Part shown: positions 14,946-24,791 of the stretch, piece by piece
How positions within the stretch are numbered: the first letter of the stretch is position 1
Layout: the number at the start of each line of letters is the position of its first letter
DNA from: Desulfarculus baarsii DSM 2075
GTDB taxonomy: Bacteria > Desulfobacterota > Desulfarculia > Desulfarculales > Desulfarculaceae
Assembly: GCF_000143965.1 (NCBI RefSeq)
Contig: NC_014365.1
Span: 248,001 to 312,000, forward strand
Direction of reading: 5' to 3'
DNA length: 64,000 nucleotides
The notes under the pieces: model-generated
Told to the model about the DNA's origin: nothing
Seen by the model: only the letters and a program-made list of their open reading frames with translations
Databases searched by the model: none
Translations under genes and position numbers: made by a program

Positions 14946-15827
14946 CTACTTGAACCAGGAGTCGGAGTAGAGGATATGGCCGAGCAGGGCCTGGGCGCCC
15001 TTGACAAAGACCTTCTGGGTTTCGTCGGAGACGTCGCCGGGGTCTTTGATCTCGCCGTCCTGGACCTTGTGGACAACCTCGACCAGGTCGGGCCGCTGGC
15101 CCTTGGCGATGGCCACCAGCAGTTCGTCTTCGTAGTCGACGATGCTGCTGTACATGCCGGCCCGCTCGAGCATGATCATGTAGATCTGGTTGAGCGGCTC
15201 GCGCCAGGGGGTGCCGTTGGAGCAGTTGCTCAGGCCGTTGGTGCTCTTGGCGCCGGGGACGATGTCCTGCAACATGGCCATGAAGCGCAGGTTGGCCATC
15301 AACTGTTCCTGCTGAATGTTCAGCGGGGTGATGATGGGGTCGACAAAGAGCTTCTCGTTGGCCAGGCCGGCCTCGTTGGCGGCGTAGCACAGCTCGACGC
15401 ACAGGGAGGCGCGCTCGTTCTCGTCACGCGGCAAACCCTCGGGGCCCCACAGCAGGGCCACGATGTCGGCCTGGTACTTGGCGCACATGGGCAGCATCAC
15501 GGTGTAGCGCTCGGGACGGGCCATGACCGAGTTGACCAGGGGCACGGTGTCGCCCTTGTAGGCGGCCAAGCCGGCCTCGATGGCCTCGATGTTGGAGGTG
15601 TCCAGGGCCAGCGGGATGTCGGTGACGACTTCCTGCACGGTCTTGACCACCCACTCCATCAGCTCGGGGCCACCCTTGCGCGCCGGCCCCAGGTTGATGT
15701 CGATCCAGTCCATGCCGGCGGCCTTTTCGGCCAGGGCGTAGCGCTGGATCGGCTCGGGATTACGGTCCTTGAAGGCCTGCCCGATCTCTTTTTTGATAAC
15801 GTTTAGGTTCTCGCCGATCGTTTTCAT
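14946..15827 (-). CDS. acsE: Methyltetrahydrofolate:corrinoid/iron-sulfur protein methyltransferase
   Basis: A 293-residue TIM-barrel methyltransferase that moves the methyl group of methyl-tetrahydrofolate to the cobalt of the corrinoid iron-sulfur protein AcsCD. Pterin-binding-type features include the WIDINLGPARKGGPE region (near residue 42), LALDTSNIEAIEAG (near 74) and an Asn-rich stretch around GLSNCSNGTPWRE (near 198). Length fits AcsE (about 262-300). It is the last gene of the acs operon, 38 bases after acsC, with AGGGGTG before ATG 15827. Confidence 0.92.
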   Translation of the reverse strand: MKTIGENLNVIKKEIGQAFKDRNPEPIQRYALAEKAAGMDWIDINLGPARKGGPELMEWVVKTVQEVVTDIPLALDTSNIEAIEAGLAAYKGDTVPLVNSVMARPERYTVMLPMCAKYQADIVALLWGPEGLPRDENERASLCVELCYAANEAGLANEKLFVDPIITPLNIQQEQLMANLRFMAMLQDIVPGAKSTNGLSNCSNGTPWREPLNQIYMIMLERAGMYSSIVDYEDELLVAIAKGQRPDLVEVVHKVQDGEIKDPGDVSDETQKVFVKGAQALLGHILYSDSWFK

Positions 15828-15865: not shown

Positions 15866-17209
15866 CTATTCCGGCTTCCACTCCTTGAGGAACTTGGCCA
15901 GGTGAGCCGCCTCGCGCGGGCCGACCTTGATGTTCCAACCAGGAAGCTCCTCCTCCATGTCGCCGACGATGGCGGCGGCGTAGCCGGGAATAATGAGTGA
16001 CTTGTGGTTGATCTTTTCCTCGATGCCGCACTTCTTGACGAACATGCCCACGTCGTCGCCGGAGAACTTGCCGGCGGCCCAGGCGGTCAGAACCGACAGG
16101 CCCTCGGTGTCCTTGATCAGCAGCCACGAAGGCACGCGGGAGGACTCGATCTCGCCGCTGACGATGAAGTAGGTCAGCGAGAAGTTGGTGGTCACCAGCA
16201 CGGGGCTGTCCGGGCCGGGGCCGTTGATCTCGAAGATGCCCTGGGTCACGGTCATGGGGCGCTGGGGGTCGGTGTAGATATTGAGGCGCTCCAGCAGCAG
16301 CGGGAACACCGACTCGGCGGTCAGCTCGCCCAGGACGATGATTCCGCCGTACTTGGCCACCATCGAGGCGGCGATGGCCACCTGCATGGCCGGGTCGTCG
16401 GTCATTTCGCCGGGGAAGACGATGGTCGGGAAGCCCAGGGTGCGGTCGAGCTTGAGCAGGGCCGCGCGGCGCACGGCGATCTGGTCTTGCAGCAGGCCAG
16501 AGATGTCGCGCGCGCCGGTGTCGATCAGCAGATCCTTCAGGCCGGCCTCGGTCAGCTCGGTGGTCAGATCCTTGGCCTCGTCGATGTCGACGGCCTTGAC
16601 GGCCAGGGGGCAGCCGGTCTCGCCGGCGATGGCGCACATCTTGTCGGCGTTCTGGTTGGTGGCGGCGTAGAGGATGGGCTTTTTGTCGGCCAGGGCCTTG
16701 GCCACCGGGGCCATGATCGCCGGATCCTCGCAGGCCAGCACCAGCGAAAGGTCGGTGCTTTCGCAAAGGGCCTTGGCCGCGGCCTCGAACTTGGCGGCGT
16801 CATTGCTGGCGCACTTGAGGAAGACCAGGCCCGGGCGCAGGTTCAAGCCCACGCGCTCCCACTGCATGCCGGCCCAGACCTTGGCCTTGGCCACCAGGTC
16901 GGCGTCGGTGTCCAGAAGGGTGCCGGCCAGGCCGCAGGGGTTGAAGAAGGTTTTCTCGTGACGGAACAGCACGGTCTCGCCGCCGACGGTGGAGGCGGTG
17001 TCGCCGCTGCCATACTTGACCGGGCGGATGGGCGGGGCGCTGGCCGCGGCCAGTTTCTCGCGGGCCTCCTCGGAGACGTAGGGGCATTTGTCCAGTTCGG
17101 CCTTGCCCGCCGCCAGGTTCATGGCGAACGCCAGGCAGGTGGGCACGCCGCACTCGCCGCAGTTCGTTTTGGGCAGAAGTTTGAAAATCTCAATGCCGGT
17201 GAGGGCCAT
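15866..17209 (-). CDS. acsC: Corrinoid/iron-sulfur protein large subunit
   Basis: The 447-residue large subunit of the corrinoid iron-sulfur protein, the methyl carrier between AcsE and acetyl-CoA synthase. The N-terminal [4Fe-4S] domain is plain: Cys17, Cys20, Cys25 and Cys42 in NCGECGVPTC and KCPY. A TIM-barrel and the C-terminal B12-binding part follow, with the operon partner AcsD forming the heterodimer. The length matches the roughly 446-residue Moorella protein. A hairpin with a U tract separates it from acsB, so its expression may be tuned relative to acsAB. Confidence 0.95.
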   Translation of the reverse strand: MALTGIEIFKLLPKTNCGECGVPTCLAFAMNLAAGKAELDKCPYVSEEAREKLAAASAPPIRPVKYGSGDTASTVGGETVLFRHEKTFFNPCGLAGTLLDTDADLVAKAKVWAGMQWERVGLNLRPGLVFLKCASNDAAKFEAAAKALCESTDLSLVLACEDPAIMAPVAKALADKKPILYAATNQNADKMCAIAGETGCPLAVKAVDIDEAKDLTTELTEAGLKDLLIDTGARDISGLLQDQIAVRRAALLKLDRTLGFPTIVFPGEMTDDPAMQVAIAASMVAKYGGIIVLGELTAESVFPLLLERLNIYTDPQRPMTVTQGIFEINGPGPDSPVLVTTNFSLTYFIVSGEIESSRVPSWLLIKDTEGLSVLTAWAAGKFSGDDVGMFVKKCGIEEKINHKSLIIPGYAAAIVGDMEEELPGWNIKVGPREAAHLAKFLKEWKPE

Positions 17210-17290: not shown

Positions 17291-19501
17291 CTAGCCAACG
17301 ATCGGGTCCATCTCGACAGCGGGATGGCCTACCTTTTGCAGATACTCGTACACGCTGGCCTCGTCGATGGCGATGGTTTCATCGCAGATCTTGTCGATGA
17401 GGTCGGGCACGCCGACTTCCTCTCCACGGCGCAAGAGGCCTTCACGCAATTCTTCCTTGAGCGACTTGGGCATCCAGACCATACGCTTGATGCCGCCGTC
17501 ACCGGCGATGTACTTGCGCTGAATGATGTTGTACTTGGAGTGGCCAACAAAGCCCGGCGAGGACTGACCGCCACCCATGACGCCGGCCAGGGTGGTGAAC
17601 TTCATGCCGCAGGGAGTTTCGCCGGTGTAGTCGCGGTGCACGGTCATCACGCCGTTGCAGCCGGGCAACAGGGCGGCGATGCACTCGCAGCAGCCGCAGG
17701 TGGTCATGGGCTCGTAGACGATGCTATAGAAGTTGTACTGGCTGATCTTGCCACGGCTGGCCTTGGCCACGAAGTCGTTGCAGCCCTTCCACATGCCCAG
17801 CTTGGGATCGAGGCACTCGCCCTTTTCGATGGGCTGGTTGGGGCCAGTGGGGTTGATCTCGAAGGAGGCCTTGCAGTCCATCCAGTTGTAGGCGCCGCAG
17901 AGGCCGGTGCGCTCGGGGCTGACCACGCAGACGTGGCTGGGCGCGAACGACTGGCACAGGGTGCAGGAGTAGAAGATCTCCTCGTTTTCGTCGGTCATGT
18001 TCTCCACGCGAGAGTCACGGGCTTTGTACATGGCCCGGGCTTTTTCGGTGAAGGCCTTGACGTCCTTGGGGTCGGTGTAGAGCGTCACCTGGACTTTGTC
18101 CAGGATGCTGCCGAACTCCTTGTGGAACATGTCGTGCAGGATCTGGCCGATGTGGCGGACCTTGAAGCCCTTTTCCACGGCCGGCTGGCCCAGGCGAATC
18201 CAGGAGATGTCGCGCTGGCCGATGTGCATCACGCCCTGAGCGTAGTTGATCAGGTGGTGGATCTGGCGCTCCAGGATGGGCTCGAAGTCGGGCTGGAACT
18301 TGCGGCCGGCCACCTGGACGTAAATGCCCAGATCCAGCTTGTCGCCCTTCTTCACATCGTCCATTTCCTTGCCGATGACGACGATCTTGTTATCCTCGAT
18401 CTCGTCCATCTCGGCCATTTCGACCAGCTCGGTGGCCTGCTTCTTGCCGCCGAACTCGACGAACAGGTCGTCCTTGCGCACGCGCTCGCCCTCGAAGGCC
18501 GCGCCGTAGCTCAGAGGAATGTCGACCTTGGTCACGATGGTCTTGAGGCCGCGGACCTCCACCGACTTCTGGACCATCTCGCTGTGCGGGATGTTGCCGA
18601 CGACGTGCTCGTAGGTGCACACGCCGGTGGGCAGGATCTCGGGGATGTCGGTGTCGGCGATGGTCGGGAAGCCCCAGTTGACGCAACCGGCGGCGTTGGC
18701 CGCCCACTCGGCGTTAACCTCGCCAAAGGCGTTGACGAAGGCGAACACGCGGTCTTTGTTGTAGAGCAGGTTTTTCTTGTAGTCGCCGGGCTTGACGCCA
18801 CCGAAGGCCATGGCCGCGCGGTTGGCGAAGCCCAGGGCGAAGACGGCGCCGCTGATGTCGGGGCTGAAGGGCACCAGGCGGGTGTTCCAACCGACCTGGA
18901 CGCCAGCCTCGATCAGCTGCTCGGTGAAGGTGGTGCCCATGCGGTTGCCGGCCATGAACACGTAGAGGCTGCGCCGCTGGTATTCCTCGGCGATCTCCTT
19001 GGCGATCTCGGCGTTGGGAGCGGCGCCGACGATGGCGGCGAAGCCCGGCGCCGAGCCGTCGACGAACTCAACGCCGCGCTTGCGCAGGATGGTGTCGTCG
19101 GCCGCGCCCAGCCAAATCTTGCCGCTGGCCGGGTCGCATTCCTCGCCCAGGGTGTAGAAGTCGGGCTGCTCGAAATAGCGGATGGCTTCCAGCACTTCCT
19201 CGGCGAACAGGGCGGCCATGCCGGCGTCCAGCAGGGGCCCCAGGTAGGGCAGATGGTTGAAGTTCTGCACGTGGGCGGGCAGAAGCTTGCGGGCCACCTT
19301 CAGGGCCTTGCCGGCCGTGGCCATGTCCGTTACCGGAATGCCCAGCAGCGAGTAGATGATGGGCAGGTAGTAGGCCGTGTTGGGGAAGGCCAGCTTCTGC
19401 TCGGGACCGTATTTCTCCAGGGCTTTCTCGTAGATGCCCTCGACTCTGGTGACAATTTCGTACGCGCCTTGGATGGCCGCGAAAGCTACCAGTTTGGACA
19501 T
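17291..19501 (-). CDS. acsB: Acetyl-CoA synthase (CODH/ACS alpha subunit)
   Basis: A 736-residue nickel enzyme that condenses CO, the corrinoid-bound methyl group and CoA into acetyl-CoA. A-cluster ligands are visible: SCTLCQSFAPSHVC, then LCGAYNWMDC (near residues 512-540), and the distal-nickel Cys-Gly-Cys in TTCGCCEC (near 600). The N-terminal domain that contacts CODH and forms the CO tunnel is present (MSKLVAFAAIQGAYE onward). Length matches the bacterial form (about 729), which unlike the archaeal form keeps that N-terminal domain. It follows acsA by 39 bases, consistent with an alpha2beta2 CODH/ACS complex. Confidence 0.97.
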   Translation of the reverse strand: MSKLVAFAAIQGAYEIVTRVEGIYEKALEKYGPEQKLAFPNTAYYLPIIYSLLGIPVTDMATAGKALKVARKLLPAHVQNFNHLPYLGPLLDAGMAALFAEEVLEAIRYFEQPDFYTLGEECDPASGKIWLGAADDTILRKRGVEFVDGSAPGFAAIVGAAPNAEIAKEIAEEYQRRSLYVFMAGNRMGTTFTEQLIEAGVQVGWNTRLVPFSPDISGAVFALGFANRAAMAFGGVKPGDYKKNLLYNKDRVFAFVNAFGEVNAEWAANAAGCVNWGFPTIADTDIPEILPTGVCTYEHVVGNIPHSEMVQKSVEVRGLKTIVTKVDIPLSYGAAFEGERVRKDDLFVEFGGKKQATELVEMAEMDEIEDNKIVVIGKEMDDVKKGDKLDLGIYVQVAGRKFQPDFEPILERQIHHLINYAQGVMHIGQRDISWIRLGQPAVEKGFKVRHIGQILHDMFHKEFGSILDKVQVTLYTDPKDVKAFTEKARAMYKARDSRVENMTDENEEIFYSCTLCQSFAPSHVCVVSPERTGLCGAYNWMDCKASFEINPTGPNQPIEKGECLDPKLGMWKGCNDFVAKASRGKISQYNFYSIVYEPMTTCGCCECIAALLPGCNGVMTVHRDYTGETPCGMKFTTLAGVMGGGQSSPGFVGHSKYNIIQRKYIAGDGGIKRMVWMPKSLKEELREGLLRRGEEVGVPDLIDKICDETIAIDEASVYEYLQKVGHPAVEMDPIVG

Positions 19502-19540: not shown

Positions 19541-21607
19541 CTAGGCCACTTCTTCCAACTGACGGCGGTCGGCCATGTCCATGAGCACGCGCTCTTTCTT
19601 CTTGTCGAGGCCCAACGCCGCACGCTTCTTGTCGATGTGGCGGATCATGGCCTGAGCATGCTCATAAGGATCGACGATCATGTCCCACATGCCGCCGTAG
19701 ATGCCTTCCAGCTCCTCGAAGAGGTGCTTCTGGAAGCGCGGCGCGCCGGTCACGGGCAGGCCCACGCCGAAGACGGTGTAGACGCCGCTGACGACGAAGT
19801 AGTGGCCGATGCTGATGGCTTTCTCGCTCATCCACTCGGGCGCCGAACCGGCCGCGGGCAGGTCGGAGATGTCCTTGCCCAGACCGCCGGCCTTGACCAC
19901 CTGGGTGGCGGCCATCAGGATGCGGCTGTTGTCCACGCAGGAACCCATGTGCAACACGGGCGGGATGCCCACGGTTTCACAAACCTCGGCCAGACCCGGG
20001 CCACAGAAGACCTTGGCCGACTCGGGAGAGAGCAGGCCGGCCTTGCCGCAAGCCATGGCGTTGCAACCGGTGGTCAGAACGATGACGTCGTTCTTGAGCA
20101 GCTCCTTGACCACGGTCAAGTGGGCGCTGTCGTGCATGGAGCGGGCGTTGTTGCAGCCAACCACGCCGCCGATGCCCCGGATGCGGCCATTGATGATGTT
20201 GTCGTTGAGCGGCCAGTAGCTGCCGCGGAAGGTGCCGCCCAGGTGGTAGTTGATGGCCTCGTAGCTGAAGCCGACAACCATCTTTTCCTTGGCGCTGGGG
20301 ATCATCGCTTCGCCATGACGGTTGGGGAAGTTGTCGATGGCGGTCTTGACGATCTTCTTGGCGTCCTCGAGGGCGTTGTGCTCGTCGAACTCGATGTGCG
20401 TGGTGTGGCCGGATTCTATCATCGCCCGGGGGTTGGTGGTGATGATCTTGGTGTGATAGCAGTCGGCCACGTTGGCGATGTTTTCCATGATGCACTGCAC
20501 GTCGACGACCATGGCGTCCACCGCGCCGGTGACGATGGCCAACTCCTGCTGCAGGTAGTTGCCGGCGATGGGCAGGCCGTGGCGGCACAGAATCTCGTTG
20601 GCCGTGCAGCACATGCCGGCCAGCACGATGCCGTGGGCGCCCTTGCTCTTGGCGTAGTCGACCATGTCGGGCAACTGGGAGGCCACGACGATCATCTCGG
20701 AGAGCAGCGGCTCATGGCCGTGAACGATGATGTTGACGTGGTCCTGCTTCAGCACGCCCAGGTTGATCTCGCCCTGGGTGGGGTAGGGCGTGCCGAACAT
20801 GATGTCCTGCAGGTCGGTGGCGATCATCGAGCCGCCCCAGCCGTCGCCGATGGCGGCGCGGGTGCACTGCTTGACGATGTTGTGGTAGTCCTGGTCCACG
20901 CCCATGTGGGTGCGGTGCATGATCTCGACGATCTCGCGGTCGATGCCGCGAGGCACCACGTCGAGTTTGCGCCACAGTTCGTAGCGGGCCTTGGGGGCGC
21001 GCTTGGCGTTATAAATCTCGCCGTCCTGCTGGCCCCACTGGCCCAGAGCCTTGACGCCCACTTCCTCGGCGATGTCGTAGATGTCGCGCATCTGCTCGAT
21101 TTTTTCGCCATTCGGGCCATCGACGATGACCGTGGTGGGCACCTCGAAGTCCGGGGCGATCTCCAGCAGCTTCTGCTCGTCCTTTATGCCGTAGTCGTGG
21201 GTGCCTTTGCGGGCCGCGGTCAAAAAGACCTCGGCCACGCCACGGCCGTGGTCGCTGTGGGCGGCGGCGCCGGCGGCGACCATGCGGGCGAAGTTACGGG
21301 CGGCGATGGTCTCGGGAGTGGCGCCGCACAGACCCTTGCGGGTGTCTTTGCCTTCGATGCCCTTCTTGGGCAGCGGCAGGCGGCAGGGGCCCTGCGAGCA
21401 AATCTTGCAGCAGGTGCCCTGCTCGCCGATGTTGCAGGGCTTCATGGACACGGCGCGGTCGAAAATGGTTTCGACGTTGTCGCGCTGCGCCTTGGCCAAC
21501 ATCTGAATGGTGGCGATGTCGACGCTGGACGCTTTGGGGTCGGCCTTCTTGGTGGAAGCCGATTCTTCGGCCGCCGCGGCGACTTTGGCCTTGATCTGGT
21601 CCGACAT
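19541..21607 (-). CDS. acsA: Nickel-dependent carbon monoxide dehydrogenase (CODH/ACS beta subunit)
   Basis: A 688-residue Ni-Fe-S CODH interconverting CO2 and CO. Cluster D and B cysteines occur early: Cys58, Cys66, Cys67, Cys70 and Cys75 in KPCNIG and TCCKICSQGPC. C-cluster motifs follow: GMCCTANEI, GCNAMACGKAG and MGSCVDNSR. GAGGAGG precedes the ATG. The first 25 residues form an Ala/Lys-rich extension. The gene follows the 55-aa gene and precedes acsB, giving the classic acsA-acsB pair. It is also known as cooS. Confidence 0.97.
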   Translation of the reverse strand: MSDQIKAKVAAAAEESASTKKADPKASSVDIATIQMLAKAQRDNVETIFDRAVSMKPCNIGEQGTCCKICSQGPCRLPLPKKGIEGKDTRKGLCGATPETIAARNFARMVAAGAAAHSDHGRGVAEVFLTAARKGTHDYGIKDEQKLLEIAPDFEVPTTVIVDGPNGEKIEQMRDIYDIAEEVGVKALGQWGQQDGEIYNAKRAPKARYELWRKLDVVPRGIDREIVEIMHRTHMGVDQDYHNIVKQCTRAAIGDGWGGSMIATDLQDIMFGTPYPTQGEINLGVLKQDHVNIIVHGHEPLLSEMIVVASQLPDMVDYAKSKGAHGIVLAGMCCTANEILCRHGLPIAGNYLQQELAIVTGAVDAMVVDVQCIMENIANVADCYHTKIITTNPRAMIESGHTTHIEFDEHNALEDAKKIVKTAIDNFPNRHGEAMIPSAKEKMVVGFSYEAINYHLGGTFRGSYWPLNDNIINGRIRGIGGVVGCNNARSMHDSAHLTVVKELLKNDVIVLTTGCNAMACGKAGLLSPESAKVFCGPGLAEVCETVGIPPVLHMGSCVDNSRILMAATQVVKAGGLGKDISDLPAAGSAPEWMSEKAISIGHYFVVSGVYTVFGVGLPVTGAPRFQKHLFEELEGIYGGMWDMIVDPYEHAQAMIRHIDKKRAALGLDKKKERVLMDMADRRQLEEVA

Positions 21608-21807: not shown

Positions 21808-21975
21808 TTATTTCTTTTTGCCCAAGACGCCATCGCCGCGCAGGCGAAAACGCTCCAGGCTTTTCATGATGTAGGTGGCTTCCGGTCCGGCCGTGCCGGG
21901 CTCGGGCGGCTGGCCAAAGACCACGCCTTGGCGCTTGGCGCCGTTTCCTTCGGCTTTCTTCGTCTGTGTCGTCAT
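21808..21975 (-). CDS. Small protein homologous to the AcsD C-terminal tail
   Basis: A 55-residue gene inside the acs operon, between acsD and acsA. It is supported by a strong GGAAGGAG seven bases before ATG 21975. Its last 26 residues match the last 26 of AcsD at 18 positions, including KSL-(E/D)-RFRLRGDGVL and a basic end. Where the amino acids agree, several codons differ silently (for example TTT/TTC, GAT/GAC, TTG/CTG), so the protein sequence seems to be under selection. The N-terminal half is polar and Lys/Gly-rich. No known family was recognised. A role as a free version of an AcsD docking or assembly peptide is inference. Confidence 0.8.
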   Translation of the reverse strand: MTTQTKKAEGNGAKRQGVVFGQPPEPGTAGPEATYIMKSLERFRLRGDGVLGKKK

Positions 21976-22146
21976 CTCGTGGCTCCTTCCAGGATCAATT
22001 GTTCAGCGCTCTCGGAGCCCCACGGCCCCCGAGCGGTAATCAGTCTTTCCCGGCACCTCCGGTGACGACTATCATCCGGCCGACCGTTGGCCAACCCACG
22101 CGGCCCCGTCGTCAACGGCCCGCGCCTGGCGCGAGCCGGGGAGGCG

Positions 22147-23742
22147 CTACTTGCGGTGAGACAGGACGCCGTCGCCACGCAGGCGGAAGCGGTCCAGGCT
22201 CTTGATAACGTAAACGGCGTCGGGGCCGGCGACGTCGACGGGAATGCCCTCGCCGTAAACCTCGCCCTTGTCCTCGCGCGCTTCTTTTTGGGCCATGGCC
22301 GCGGCCATTTTTTCGCGCTCGTCGCGGCGCTGGCGGCGCAGGGCCTCCAGATCGGCCTCGGCGGCGGCCTTGGCGGCGGCTTCAGCCTTGGCTTCGGCCT
22401 CGGCTTTGGCTTTGGCTTCGGCTTCGGCGGCGGCCTTGGCGGCGGCTTCAGCCTTGGCCTTGGCTTCGGCTTCGGCCTTGGCGGCGGCTTCGGCCTTGGC
22501 CTTGGCTTCCATCTCGGCCTTGGCCCTGGCCTCGGCGTCGGCGGCGGCCGGAGCGGCGGCGGCCGGGGCCGGGGCCGGAGCGGCGGCAGCCGCGGGCGCG
22601 GCGGCAGCCGCGGGCGCGGCGGCAGCCGCGGGCGCGGCGGCAGCCGGAGCGGCGGCGGCAGGCTTGGCGGCCGGAGCGGCGGCAGGCTTGGGCGCGGGCG
22701 CGGCGGCGGCAGGCTTGGCCGGGGCCTTGGCGCCGGGGATCAGGGCGGCCTTGGGACGATCGGAGGCCACGCGGGCGGCCGCGGGGGCGCGGTCGGCCAT
22801 CATGCCGTCGATCATCTTCTTGACCGTGGCCACCGAATCGGGGTGACGCAGGATCAGGATGTCGCTGCCAGCCAGCAGGTAAGCCGTGGCCGCGGCCACT
22901 TCCATGAACACGCCGCGTTTGGCGTTGTCGCCCAGGTTGGCGGCGGCGGCCTCCTCACCGGCGATGTTGGCTTCCTTGGATTTCCAGATCTCGTTGCCGA
23001 CGTTGTTGATCATGGGCATGGTCAGCTTGTCGTCGTCCTGGAGCAGGGCGGCCATGCGCAGGCGCTCCATCACCGAGTAGCTGTACTCCATGCCGTAGCC
23101 CAGGCCGCCGGTGGTCGGGTCGACGACGACGCGATCCAGGGGCACGCCCAGGTTGCCAAGCAGAATGTTGAGCTGCTTGGCCAGGTTGACGTCGATGGGG
23201 CTGGAGGAGATGACCTGATGCTTGTAGGCCAGACAGGCCGCGCCGATCTGCTTGTGGTTGCTTTCCTCCACCGGGCCCAGGAGCAGGTTCTTGCCCTCGA
23301 AGTCCTCGGCGATTTTCTTGAGCACCACCGCGTCCTTGGCGCCGTTGGCGCTGCCCCAGACGATCACCGGCACGCTGACCGCGCCCAGGACCTTGCCCAC
23401 GACCGCGCTGGCCTGCTCGGCCGGAGCGTCGTCACCGTTGGGGTCGGTGGATTTGAGCTGAACGACGATGGCGTCCGCGCCGTACTCCTCGACGCATTTT
23501 TTGGCCCAAGCGGCCGGATCGCCCAGGACGCCCTTGAAAGGCGCCGCGCAGGCCTCGGCCCACTCGGTCGGCTCCATGTCCCACACTTCCATGGCCACCA
23601 GCGGCCGGTTGGGCATGCTGCCCTCGAAAATGTGGAAAGGATAGCAGTTCTCGCCACCAATTTTGGCAATCTTGTCGCCTTGACCGACGGCGACTTCCCT
23701 GATTTTTCCGGAGTAGTCGACTTTGGTCACTTCAAAGCCCAC
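22147..23742 (-). CDS. acsD: Corrinoid/iron-sulfur protein small subunit with long C-terminal extension
   Basis: A 531-residue protein; the first 325 or so residues are the TIM-barrel small subunit of the corrinoid iron-sulfur protein (PFHIFEGSMPNRPLVAMEVWD, then VVDPTTGGLGYGMEYSYSVMERLRMAALL). AcsD proteins are normally about 310-320 residues. Here about 200 extra residues follow: an Ala/Pro-rich linker, a charged Ala/Lys/Glu helix-forming stretch like TolA, and a final conserved motif KSLDRFRLRGDGVL. GTG 23742 was chosen because GGGAGGGAG lies upstream; an in-frame TTG seven codons earlier lies within that leader. It is the first gene of the acs operon. Confidence 0.92.
   Translation of the reverse strand: MGFEVTKVDYSGKIREVAVGQGDKIAKIGGENCYPFHIFEGSMPNRPLVAMEVWDMEPTEWAEACAAPFKGVLGDPAAWAKKCVEEYGADAIVVQLKSTDPNGDDAPAEQASAVVGKVLGAVSVPVIVWGSANGAKDAVVLKKIAEDFEGKNLLLGPVEESNHKQIGAACLAYKHQVISSSPIDVNLAKQLNILLGNLGVPLDRVVVDPTTGGLGYGMEYSYSVMERLRMAALLQDDDKLTMPMINNVGNEIWKSKEANIAGEEAAAANLGDNAKRGVFMEVAAATAYLLAGSDILILRHPDSVATVKKMIDGMMADRAPAAARVASDRPKAALIPGAKAPAKPAAAAPAPKPAAAPAAKPAAAAPAAAAPAAAAAPAAAAAPAAAAAPAPAPAAAAPAAADAEARAKAEMEAKAKAEAAAKAEAEAKAKAEAAAKAAAEAEAKAKAEAEAKAEAAAKAAAEADLEALRRQRRDEREKMAAAMAQKEAREDKGEVYGEGIPVDVAGPDAVYVIKSLDRFRLRGDGVLSHRK
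22340..22735 (-). repeat. Low-complexity repeats encoding the AcsD linker
   Basis: Within acsD two repeat blocks are visible. From about 22580 to 22648 an 18-base unit (GCGGCGGCAGCCGCGGGC on the plus strand) is repeated three times exactly plus a partial copy, encoding Ala/Pro. From about 22340 to 22530 irregular 6-base steps encode Ala-Lys-Ala-Glu runs resembling the TolA helix. Confidence 0.85.
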
Positions 23743-23860
23743 AGCAACTCCCTCCCGCTGCAAAGTGATTCATCAACATCGCCTTGGCGCGGTCACCATT
23801 CGCAGGGCCTCCCCCGGCCGATGTGTTCCGGGGGTGCGAAAAGATGGCGCGTTATGTGCA

Positions 23861-24029: not shown

Positions 24030-24791
24030 CTATTGCCGCCAGGCGGCGGGGATCACTTTGTCGAAGATGGCGAAGGCCGCCTTCACCGCTGGATTGTCAG
24101 CGGGCAGCTTGCTGGTGGGCCGGCCTTGCAGGTCGGCCTGGGCCAGGGCCTCGTCGTCGGGGATGAAACCGGCCAGCTCCACGCCCATCTCGGCGGCCGA
24201 GGCGCTAAGCTCGGGGGCCAGTTCGCCGCGCACCATCGATAAGATAAGAAAAGCATCGCCGGCCAGGATGCCCATCTCCTTGGCCAGTTCGGCCACGCGG
24301 GCGGCGGCGGTCATGCTGCGCCGGCTGGGGTCGCTGACCACCAGCAGCAAATCCACCCGCTGGGTGGTCACCCGGCTGATGTGCTCCATGCCCGCCTCGT
24401 TGTCGACCACCAGAAAACGGTAGTTGCCGGCGAGCTGATCCATGCTGGCGGTCAGCAGATGGTTGGCCGCGCAATAACAGCCAGCGCCCTCGGGCCGGCC
24501 CATGGCGATCAGGTCGAAGCCTTCGGCCTCTTCCAGGCACTGATTGACGCGCATCTCGATGAAAAGGTTTTTGGTCATGCCATGGCTCTGGCCTTTTTTC
24601 ATGTCCTCGCGGGCATCGCCCAGGGTCATGTTGAGCTCGAGGCCGAGCACTTCGTTGAGGTTGCTGTTGGAGTCGGCGTCAACGGCAAGGACGGGCTTCA
24701 GCCCCTGCTCGACCAGATATCTGACCAGCAGGCCAGAGACGGTGGTCTTGCCCACGCCTCCCTTGCCCGCCACGGCGATGGTGTAGGCCAA
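24030..24791 (-). CDS. cooC: CODH nickel-insertion ATPase CooC/AcsF type
   Basis: A 253-residue MinD-type ATPase that supports nickel loading of CODH or ACS. The deviant Walker A motif GKGGVGKTT is at residues 9-17, and the metal-binding Cys-x-Cys occurs in GAGCYCAANH (near residue 104), which in CooC binds nickel or zinc at the dimer interface. It is upstream of acsD with a 287-base gap that contains the acs promoter region, so it is probably transcribed separately in the same direction. It is divergent from dnaA. Confidence 0.93.
   Translation of the reverse strand: MAYTIAVAGKGGVGKTTVSGLLVRYLVEQGLKPVLAVDADSNSNLNEVLGLELNMTLGDAREDMKKGQSHGMTKNLFIEMRVNQCLEEAEGFDLIAMGRPEGAGCYCAANHLLTASMDQLAGNYRFLVVDNEAGMEHISRVTTQRVDLLLVVSDPSRRSMTAAARVAELAKEMGILAGDAFLILSMVRGELAPELSASAAEMGVELAGFIPDDEALAQADLQGRPTSKLPADNPAVKAAFAIFDKVIPAAWRQ

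Follow-up and report, generated by a model that had tools for sequence, protein, structure and literature searches.

CFeSP has to visit AcsE, the ACS A-cluster and a reductant. In acetogens (Moorella, C. autoethanogenum) it is a standalone protein (PMC11474084). The acetogen CODH/ACS has the same catalytic subunits as that of Desulfarculus baarsii, whose AcsD core aligns to 4djd, 2h9a and 9fzy; acetogen AcsD, unlike that of D. baarsii, is 309-323 aa long and has neither linker nor tag. The methanogen ACDS (alpha-epsilon CODH, beta ACS, gamma-delta CFeSP) is alike in that CFeSP is stably held with CODH/ACS, in a 2.2-MDa complex (PMC11474084). Its subunit extensions, whose role is unassigned (PMC11474084), are on ACS and CODH alpha, and no tag of the kind reported here has been described for it. 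According to a 2024 study, the interaction between ACS and CFeSP has been visualised in no organism so far (PMC11474084).

The ideas of a docking tag and of a swinging arm are already known. In the 2-oxoacid dehydrogenases, the lipoyl domains of E2 swing on linkers, and E2, like the AcsD described below, combines an intermediate carrier on a flexible linker with a small enzyme-attaching module (PMC8421416). However, the E2 peripheral subunit-binding domain has no sequence relation to the AcsD tag, which lacks a Pfam hit, has about 40 residues, forms the tip of a helical arm, moves from subunit to subunit and also occurs free. The Rubisco-binding motifs of EPYC1 and other pyrenoid proteins are comparable: a single short motif is repeated along a linker protein and is also carried by a number of clients of one carbon-fixing enzyme (PMC9614477). 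They differ in that the system here is a bacterial CODH/ACS, a sequence relation is not expected, there is usually one tag per protein and there is no evidence of condensation. The cargo peptides of microcompartments and encapsulins are also similar, being short, terminal, preceded by a variable linker and shared among several enzymes of a pathway. The open literature searched held no description of an AcsD extension, of a docking tag used in CODH/ACS and portable among AcsD, AcsE and a free protein, or of a tandem form, and the words 'extension', 'C-terminal' and 'fusion' are absent from a recent paper on the pathway in Desulfobacterota (PMC12827605).

The window, meaning the whole 64,000-nucleotide stretch of DNA that was analysed, covers positions 248001-312000 of C1 in the single-contig D. 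baarsii genome of 3,655,731 bases. It carries an acs operon on the minus strand in the order cooC-like ATPase, acsD, a 55-aa ORF, acsA, acsB, acsC and acsE, the features of which are as follows.

24030..24791, minus strand: cooC-like ATPase, first gene of the run (MinD/ParA-type ATPase profiles)
22147..23763, minus strand: acsD, CFeSP small subunit, 538 aa including the C-terminal extension (TTG start, TAG stop)
22537..22779, minus strand: Ala/Pro-rich disordered linker, AcsD residues ~329-409 (AlphaFold2 pLDDT mostly < 50)
22270..22536, minus strand: long predicted single helix, AcsD residues ~410-498 (AlphaFold2; AEAKAK repeats, ending in LRRQRRDERE)
22150..22278, minus strand: putative docking tag, cis copy, AcsD residues ~496-538 (profile A1, E = 1.4e-21)
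21983..21990, minus strand: ribosome-binding site GGAAGGAG of the free tag gene (from the sequence)
21808..21975, minus strand: free 55-aa tag protein, the trans copy (ATG start; profile A1, E = 1.9e-21)
21823..21927, minus strand: tag region in the free protein, residues ~17-51 (alignment of 32 tags)
19541..21607, minus strand: acsA/cooS, CODH catalytic subunit (TIGR01702, 8.9e-183)
17291..19501, minus strand: acsB, acetyl-CoA synthase (NF040764, 1081 bits)
15866..17209, minus strand: acsC, CFeSP large subunit (NF003195, 600 bits)
14946..15827, minus strand: acsE, methyl-THF:CFeSP methyltransferase (Pterin_bind, 7.1e-12)

AcsD belongs to the CFeSP small-subunit family (NCBIfam NF003377, 666.8 bits against a cut-off of 527; Pfam CdhD PF03599, 2.8e-47), and the D. 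baarsii AcsE, whose last residue is 293, is untagged. The acs run adjoins dnaA-like and dnaN-like genes.

The original prediction was that AcsD ends in a peptide also encoded by the small ORF, with 18 of 26 C-terminal residues matching, and direct comparison of the two ends (GPDAVYVIKSLDRFRLRGDGVLSHRK in AcsD and GPEATYIMKSLERFRLRGDGVLGKKK in the 55-aa ORF) confirmed this count. The likeness greatly exceeds chance: no more than nine positions matched in any of 100,000 shuffles of the AcsD end, and the runner-up among 644 stop-to-stop ORF ends of the window had seven. A search of the D. baarsii genome with the 55-aa protein as single query recovers the AcsD tail (E = 5.8e-10). The match also reaches upstream past the core first recognised and starts near residue 17 in the small protein and near residue 496 in AcsD. 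Over the 13 identical residues of the core, KSL(D/E)RFRLRGDGVL, seven codons are identical and six differ silently, exactly as first counted. Across the tag region, 12 of 22 identical codable residues share a codon, against 14.0 expected from independent codon choice; the silent sites are thus saturated and the two D. baarsii copies are old, which agrees with the earlier view that this is not a recent DNA copy. The ribosome-binding site attributed to the small gene is also present, 7 nt ahead of the ATG. No family in Pfam, NCBIfam or PHROGs, the peripheral subunit-binding domain included, matched the 55-aa protein, and the best PDB chain against the tag profile was unrelated (E = 1.7).

AcsD comprises a corrinoid-protein core, an Ala/Pro linker (~80 residues), a predicted helix (~89 residues) and the tag (~40 residues). 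The best solved relatives, 4djd, 2h9a and 9fzy, align to residues 10-325 only, with ~210 residues lying beyond. In the AlphaFold2 model the helix is continuous from residue 410 to 498, with pLDDT ~63-87 over most of its length, and would measure ~130 angstrom (89 residues at 1.5 angstrom per residue). The tip was modelled as an isolated short helix (residues 514-529, pLDDT ~50) with no confident placement on the core; the idea that the tag docks on the AcsD that bears it was set aside, as the model does not show this.

A profile built from 15 tags (A1) was run against the D. baarsii genome, 395 genomes of the phylum and 20 of the family. Membership was defined as a match at E < 1e-10 either at a C-terminus or covering nearly the whole of a free protein. 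Both D. baarsii copies pass this threshold, although both are rows of the profile, and their independent support is the single-sequence match given above. Strong matches were confined to acs genes in both sets of 20 and 395 genomes, and homologues exist beyond D. baarsii, as expected of the conserved peptide first proposed. AcsD ends in the tag in every family genome with an assembled acsD end and CODH/ACS, and likewise in all three genomes of a second family (f21). AcsD tails missing from G053, G172, G340, G396, G400 and G401 reflect apparent contig breaks within the repetitive linker. No plasmid record matched the tag. A third D. baarsii hit (C1:2387566), a 117-aa arginine-rich frame with a stop before the match is complete, was judged to be chance. 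Among weak genome hits (E 0.01-0.1), most of the ones inspected were TctA transporters or short stray stretches; in the TctA-type transporters (L122, L127, L128, L130, L131, L134 and L135) the motif EFGxGAIEGVAGPEAANN resembles the first half of the tag, YGEPRPAGVAGPDA, and was taken as chance.

The tag is not restricted to AcsD. In three genomes of genus g2 (G172, G015 and G340) the C-terminus of AcsE is tagged in frame after an acidic/Pro-rich linker, giving proteins of ~393 aa (L099, L100 and L101). AcsE is probably tagged in a fourth genome, G398, where the same linker begins and the contig ends (L021/L212). Free ORFs of 48-55 aa occur in D. baarsii and seven other genomes. They lie either between acsD and acsA (G000, G395, G399 and G404, each with an ATG and a ribosome-binding site), a position in which D. 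baarsii is matched by three other genomes, or directly 3' of acsE (G262, G302, G396 and G397). In G262 and G302, AcsE has 314 aa: it retains the initial ~21 residues of the extension that fused AcsE has, and a stop follows. With the separate tag ORF downstream, this means that the tag exists both fused and free at one place. The AcsD tail and the small gene co-occur in several genomes and not in others. A second tag copy was found neither in f21 nor in three Desulfarculaceae whose contigs span the region between the end of AcsD and AcsE (G146, G089 and G400).

Several tags on one chain, as an EPYC1-like multivalent linker would have, were seen only in the second, isolated AcsD of Dethiosulfatarculus sandiegensis (G399; L023/L206, L205), which ends in four tandem tags; D. 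baarsii has one per chain. At L205:4776-7982 these form four tandem units of linker helix plus tag, and there is no other acs gene in the 16-kb stretch.

Two kinds of natural experiment bear on what the tag might bind. In G118, of the same family, AcsD, AcsC and AcsE are encoded in a row and AcsD, at 318 aa, has neither linker nor tag; a search of the whole genome, which is 92% complete, found no CODH (TIGR01702) and no ACS (NF040764), and no cooC was found in the stretch around acsD. The loss of the tail alongside CODH/ACS is suggestive, coming as it does from one incomplete genome in which cooC is also missing beside acsD. As CODH, ACS, the neighbouring cooC and the tail are missing together, the absence of the tail could go with that of cooC or other lost partners as well as with that of AcsA/AcsB. 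The AcsCDE of G118 may serve methyl transfer without ACS; for Dehalococcoides it has been speculated that CFeSP passes the methyl group directly to a core methionine synthase (PMC7005905). The AcsD of Dehalococcoides is reported to fall within the AcsD clade of Desulfobacterota (PMC12827605) and to occur with AcsB (PMC7005905). The acsD-acsC-acsE row (L215, G118:C9:1-14000) lies beside dnaA-like and dnaN-like genes.

In the second kind, a single polypeptide of ~1,123-1,135 aa contains both AcsD and AcsA, connected through an Ala/Pro linker; its one frame encodes the Pfam domains CdhD and Prismane (L259:5315-8683 in G026, family f27; L257:4890-8294 in G312, family f57). These fusions are evidence of nearness and not proof that the tag binds AcsA. 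In G269 (f93; L258:7602-10274), a linker containing TPR repeats connects methylenetetrahydrofolate reductase (MetF) to AcsD; acsB, acsC and acsE come next and there is no acsA within the 14-kb stretch. Together the AcsD-AcsA and MetF-AcsD fusions indicate that tethering of AcsD to pathway partners arose in several ways.

From its conservation, its occurrence in acs genes only, its movement between AcsD, AcsE and a free form, its tandem copies and its absence from the one genome lacking CODH/ACS, and from the purifying selection on the free gene in one genus and the AcsD-AcsA fusions, we infer that the tag binds a receptor, that the arm acts as a tether and that the free peptide has a part in docking. 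On this sequence evidence, the tag probably docks the mobile methyl carriers (CFeSP and sometimes AcsE) on the CODH/ACS core, with the free peptide as a trans ligand. The receptor would most likely lie on AcsA or where AcsA meets AcsB, and AcsB may be an alternative. When the tag of G172 and AcsA were modelled by AlphaFold2 as one chain, with intergenic stop codons read as Gly, AcsA folded and the tag remained undocked (pLDDT ~35-43); the model was a monomer with a ~60-residue junk linker, built from 30 sequences and without AcsB, and speaks weakly either way on AcsA as receptor.

The presence of two tags in most Desulfarculaceae operons, and of four on one AcsD, could also be explained if tags associated with each other, a bundle assembling AcsD, AcsE and the free peptide without any receptor on CODH/ACS. 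An amphipathic helix does end the tag, with a hydrophobic moment of 0.40-0.53 in the Desulfarculaceae-type tags tested. Self-association is nevertheless unlikely, given that f21 and several Desulfarculaceae have a single tag, that the most conserved residues (AGPD, RW and RGDG) show no heptad pattern and that the tag is gone where CODH/ACS is gone even though AcsD and AcsE persist.

It is also unlikely that the tag is recognised not by the catalytic core but by a factor for maturation or reactivation, such as a CooC-type ATPase or a corrinoid reductase. The position of cooC directly upstream of acsD is conserved in relatives, and no cooC was found around acsD of the tag-less G118, both as such a role would predict; however, AcsE, which has no metal centre to mature, is tagged in three genomes, and the AcsD-AcsA fusions point to the enzyme itself. 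A generic basic amphipathic helix that binds membrane or nucleic acid would fit the basic, amphipathic C-terminus, but it is an improbable explanation of a tag confined to acs genes, in which invariant residues lie outside the helix (YG...AGPD), G and D residues follow it, the hydrophobic moment is moderate and mean hydrophobicity is negative.

The tag consensus is YGxPRxxGxAGPDxxYIxKSLxRWRLRGDGVL. G21, A29, G30, R42, R46, G47 and G49 (free-protein numbering) are invariant in 28 tags, whether from AcsD, AcsE or free proteins. Residue 43 is Phe only in the two D. baarsii copies and Trp in the rest of the 28. The paired Phe43 may be what is expected if both copies face one receptor; a local duplication after the change gives the same picture. 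Similarity between the AcsD tag and the second tag is higher within genomes (0.62) than between them (0.54, P = 0.0007), to which shared ancestry contributes. In a tag tree built on too few columns to place the free copies in one lineage or several, the labels need at least nine changes and none forms a single group, so that several moves or duplications are likely. In G395, 28 of 30 codons are the same in the tag of AcsD and in the free tag, which indicates that duplication or conversion took place more than once.

Fresh copies such as that of G395 might suggest that the 55-aa ORF is what remains of a duplication of the AcsD tail and has no function. This is very improbable: in the free genes of g2, the one genus that could be tested, pN (0.018-0.069) is far below pS (0.23-0.39), as judged from sequence a sign of purifying selection; the D. 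baarsii motif is intact although its silent sites are saturated; and start codon and ribosome-binding site are kept by the free genes in eight genomes. The first ~15 residues of the free protein vary between genera, so that it is little more than the tag. Encapsulation in a bacterial microcompartment was rejected, as the D. baarsii genome has no BMC shell gene (PF00936; controls positive).

If the tag is a docking tag, CFeSP would be tethered to AcsA/AcsB by the flexible linker and a helix arm ending in the tag, while still able to swing, and docking would do for tagged AcsD what the AcsD-AcsA fusions do covalently. Tagging of AcsE would bring the methyl donor to the same core, and several tags per chain could cross-link complexes. 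The free 55-aa peptide would probably occupy docking sites, or compete for them, and thereby control how much CFeSP and AcsE is docked and how much is free; it may act as a competitor, a filler or a structural subunit. Docking would be optional for the enzyme, since many AcsD of the phylum Desulfobacterota have open frames of ~314-345 aa without a long tail. Of the earlier suggestion of a docking or regulatory peptide, the part on a conserved peptide that can serve in cis and in trans within the CODH/ACS system is well supported by the homologues, the AcsE fusion, the four-copy AcsD and the purifying selection on free copies in one genus; docking is its probable function, and a regulatory role of the free peptide is conjectural. 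By analogy with the pyrenoid motifs, a more ambitious and tentative proposal, which we regard as somewhat unlikely, is that the portable tag assembles CFeSP and AcsE around CODH/ACS as a dynamic metabolon in which multi-tag AcsD cross-links and the free tag, as a soluble competitor, tunes assembly.

A tether, its natural loss, fusions to CODH and a free peptide expected to compete for the docking site would make the contact between CFeSP and CODH/ACS testable in sulfate reducers and the complex trappable. A portable docking tag may also help engineers assembling the Wood-Ljungdahl pathway.

A second type of tip (A2) is found in Desulfobacterales. Their tailed AcsD share the linker, the AEAKAK helix and the LRxxRRxERE end with AcsD of D. 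baarsii, and end in TPAAxQKSxxDKxLxRLNRIHRR (...LNRIHRR). The A2 profile gave no match in the D. baarsii genome, and hhalign of the two tail types alone gave E = 0.13, pairing ILRQLERWR with MLDLLNRIH. In the full AcsD alignment both tips fall in the same register and L523, R525 and R529 are nearly invariant. A common origin of the two tip types is likely from these alignments.

Other arrangements of the acs genes were also seen. In Eth-SRB2 (L028:7983-11186) and in L036, AcsD has 352 aa and ends just before the linker; its gene is beside acsA and away from acsB-acsC-acsE, a cluster that the L028 genome has on another contig (C61). In Desulfothermus okinawensis (L094:9467-9595), the AcsD tail is in a separate frame behind a truncated AcsD, likely a sequencing error because acsB of the same draft is also in two frames. 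Finally, AcsB of a Clostridia MAG (L079:1-2997) is split by a putative intein of ~540 residues exactly between A-cluster cysteines (SCTLC | ... HNYLVNWIVAKN | CQSFAPNHLC), while its close relative L077 is uninterrupted.
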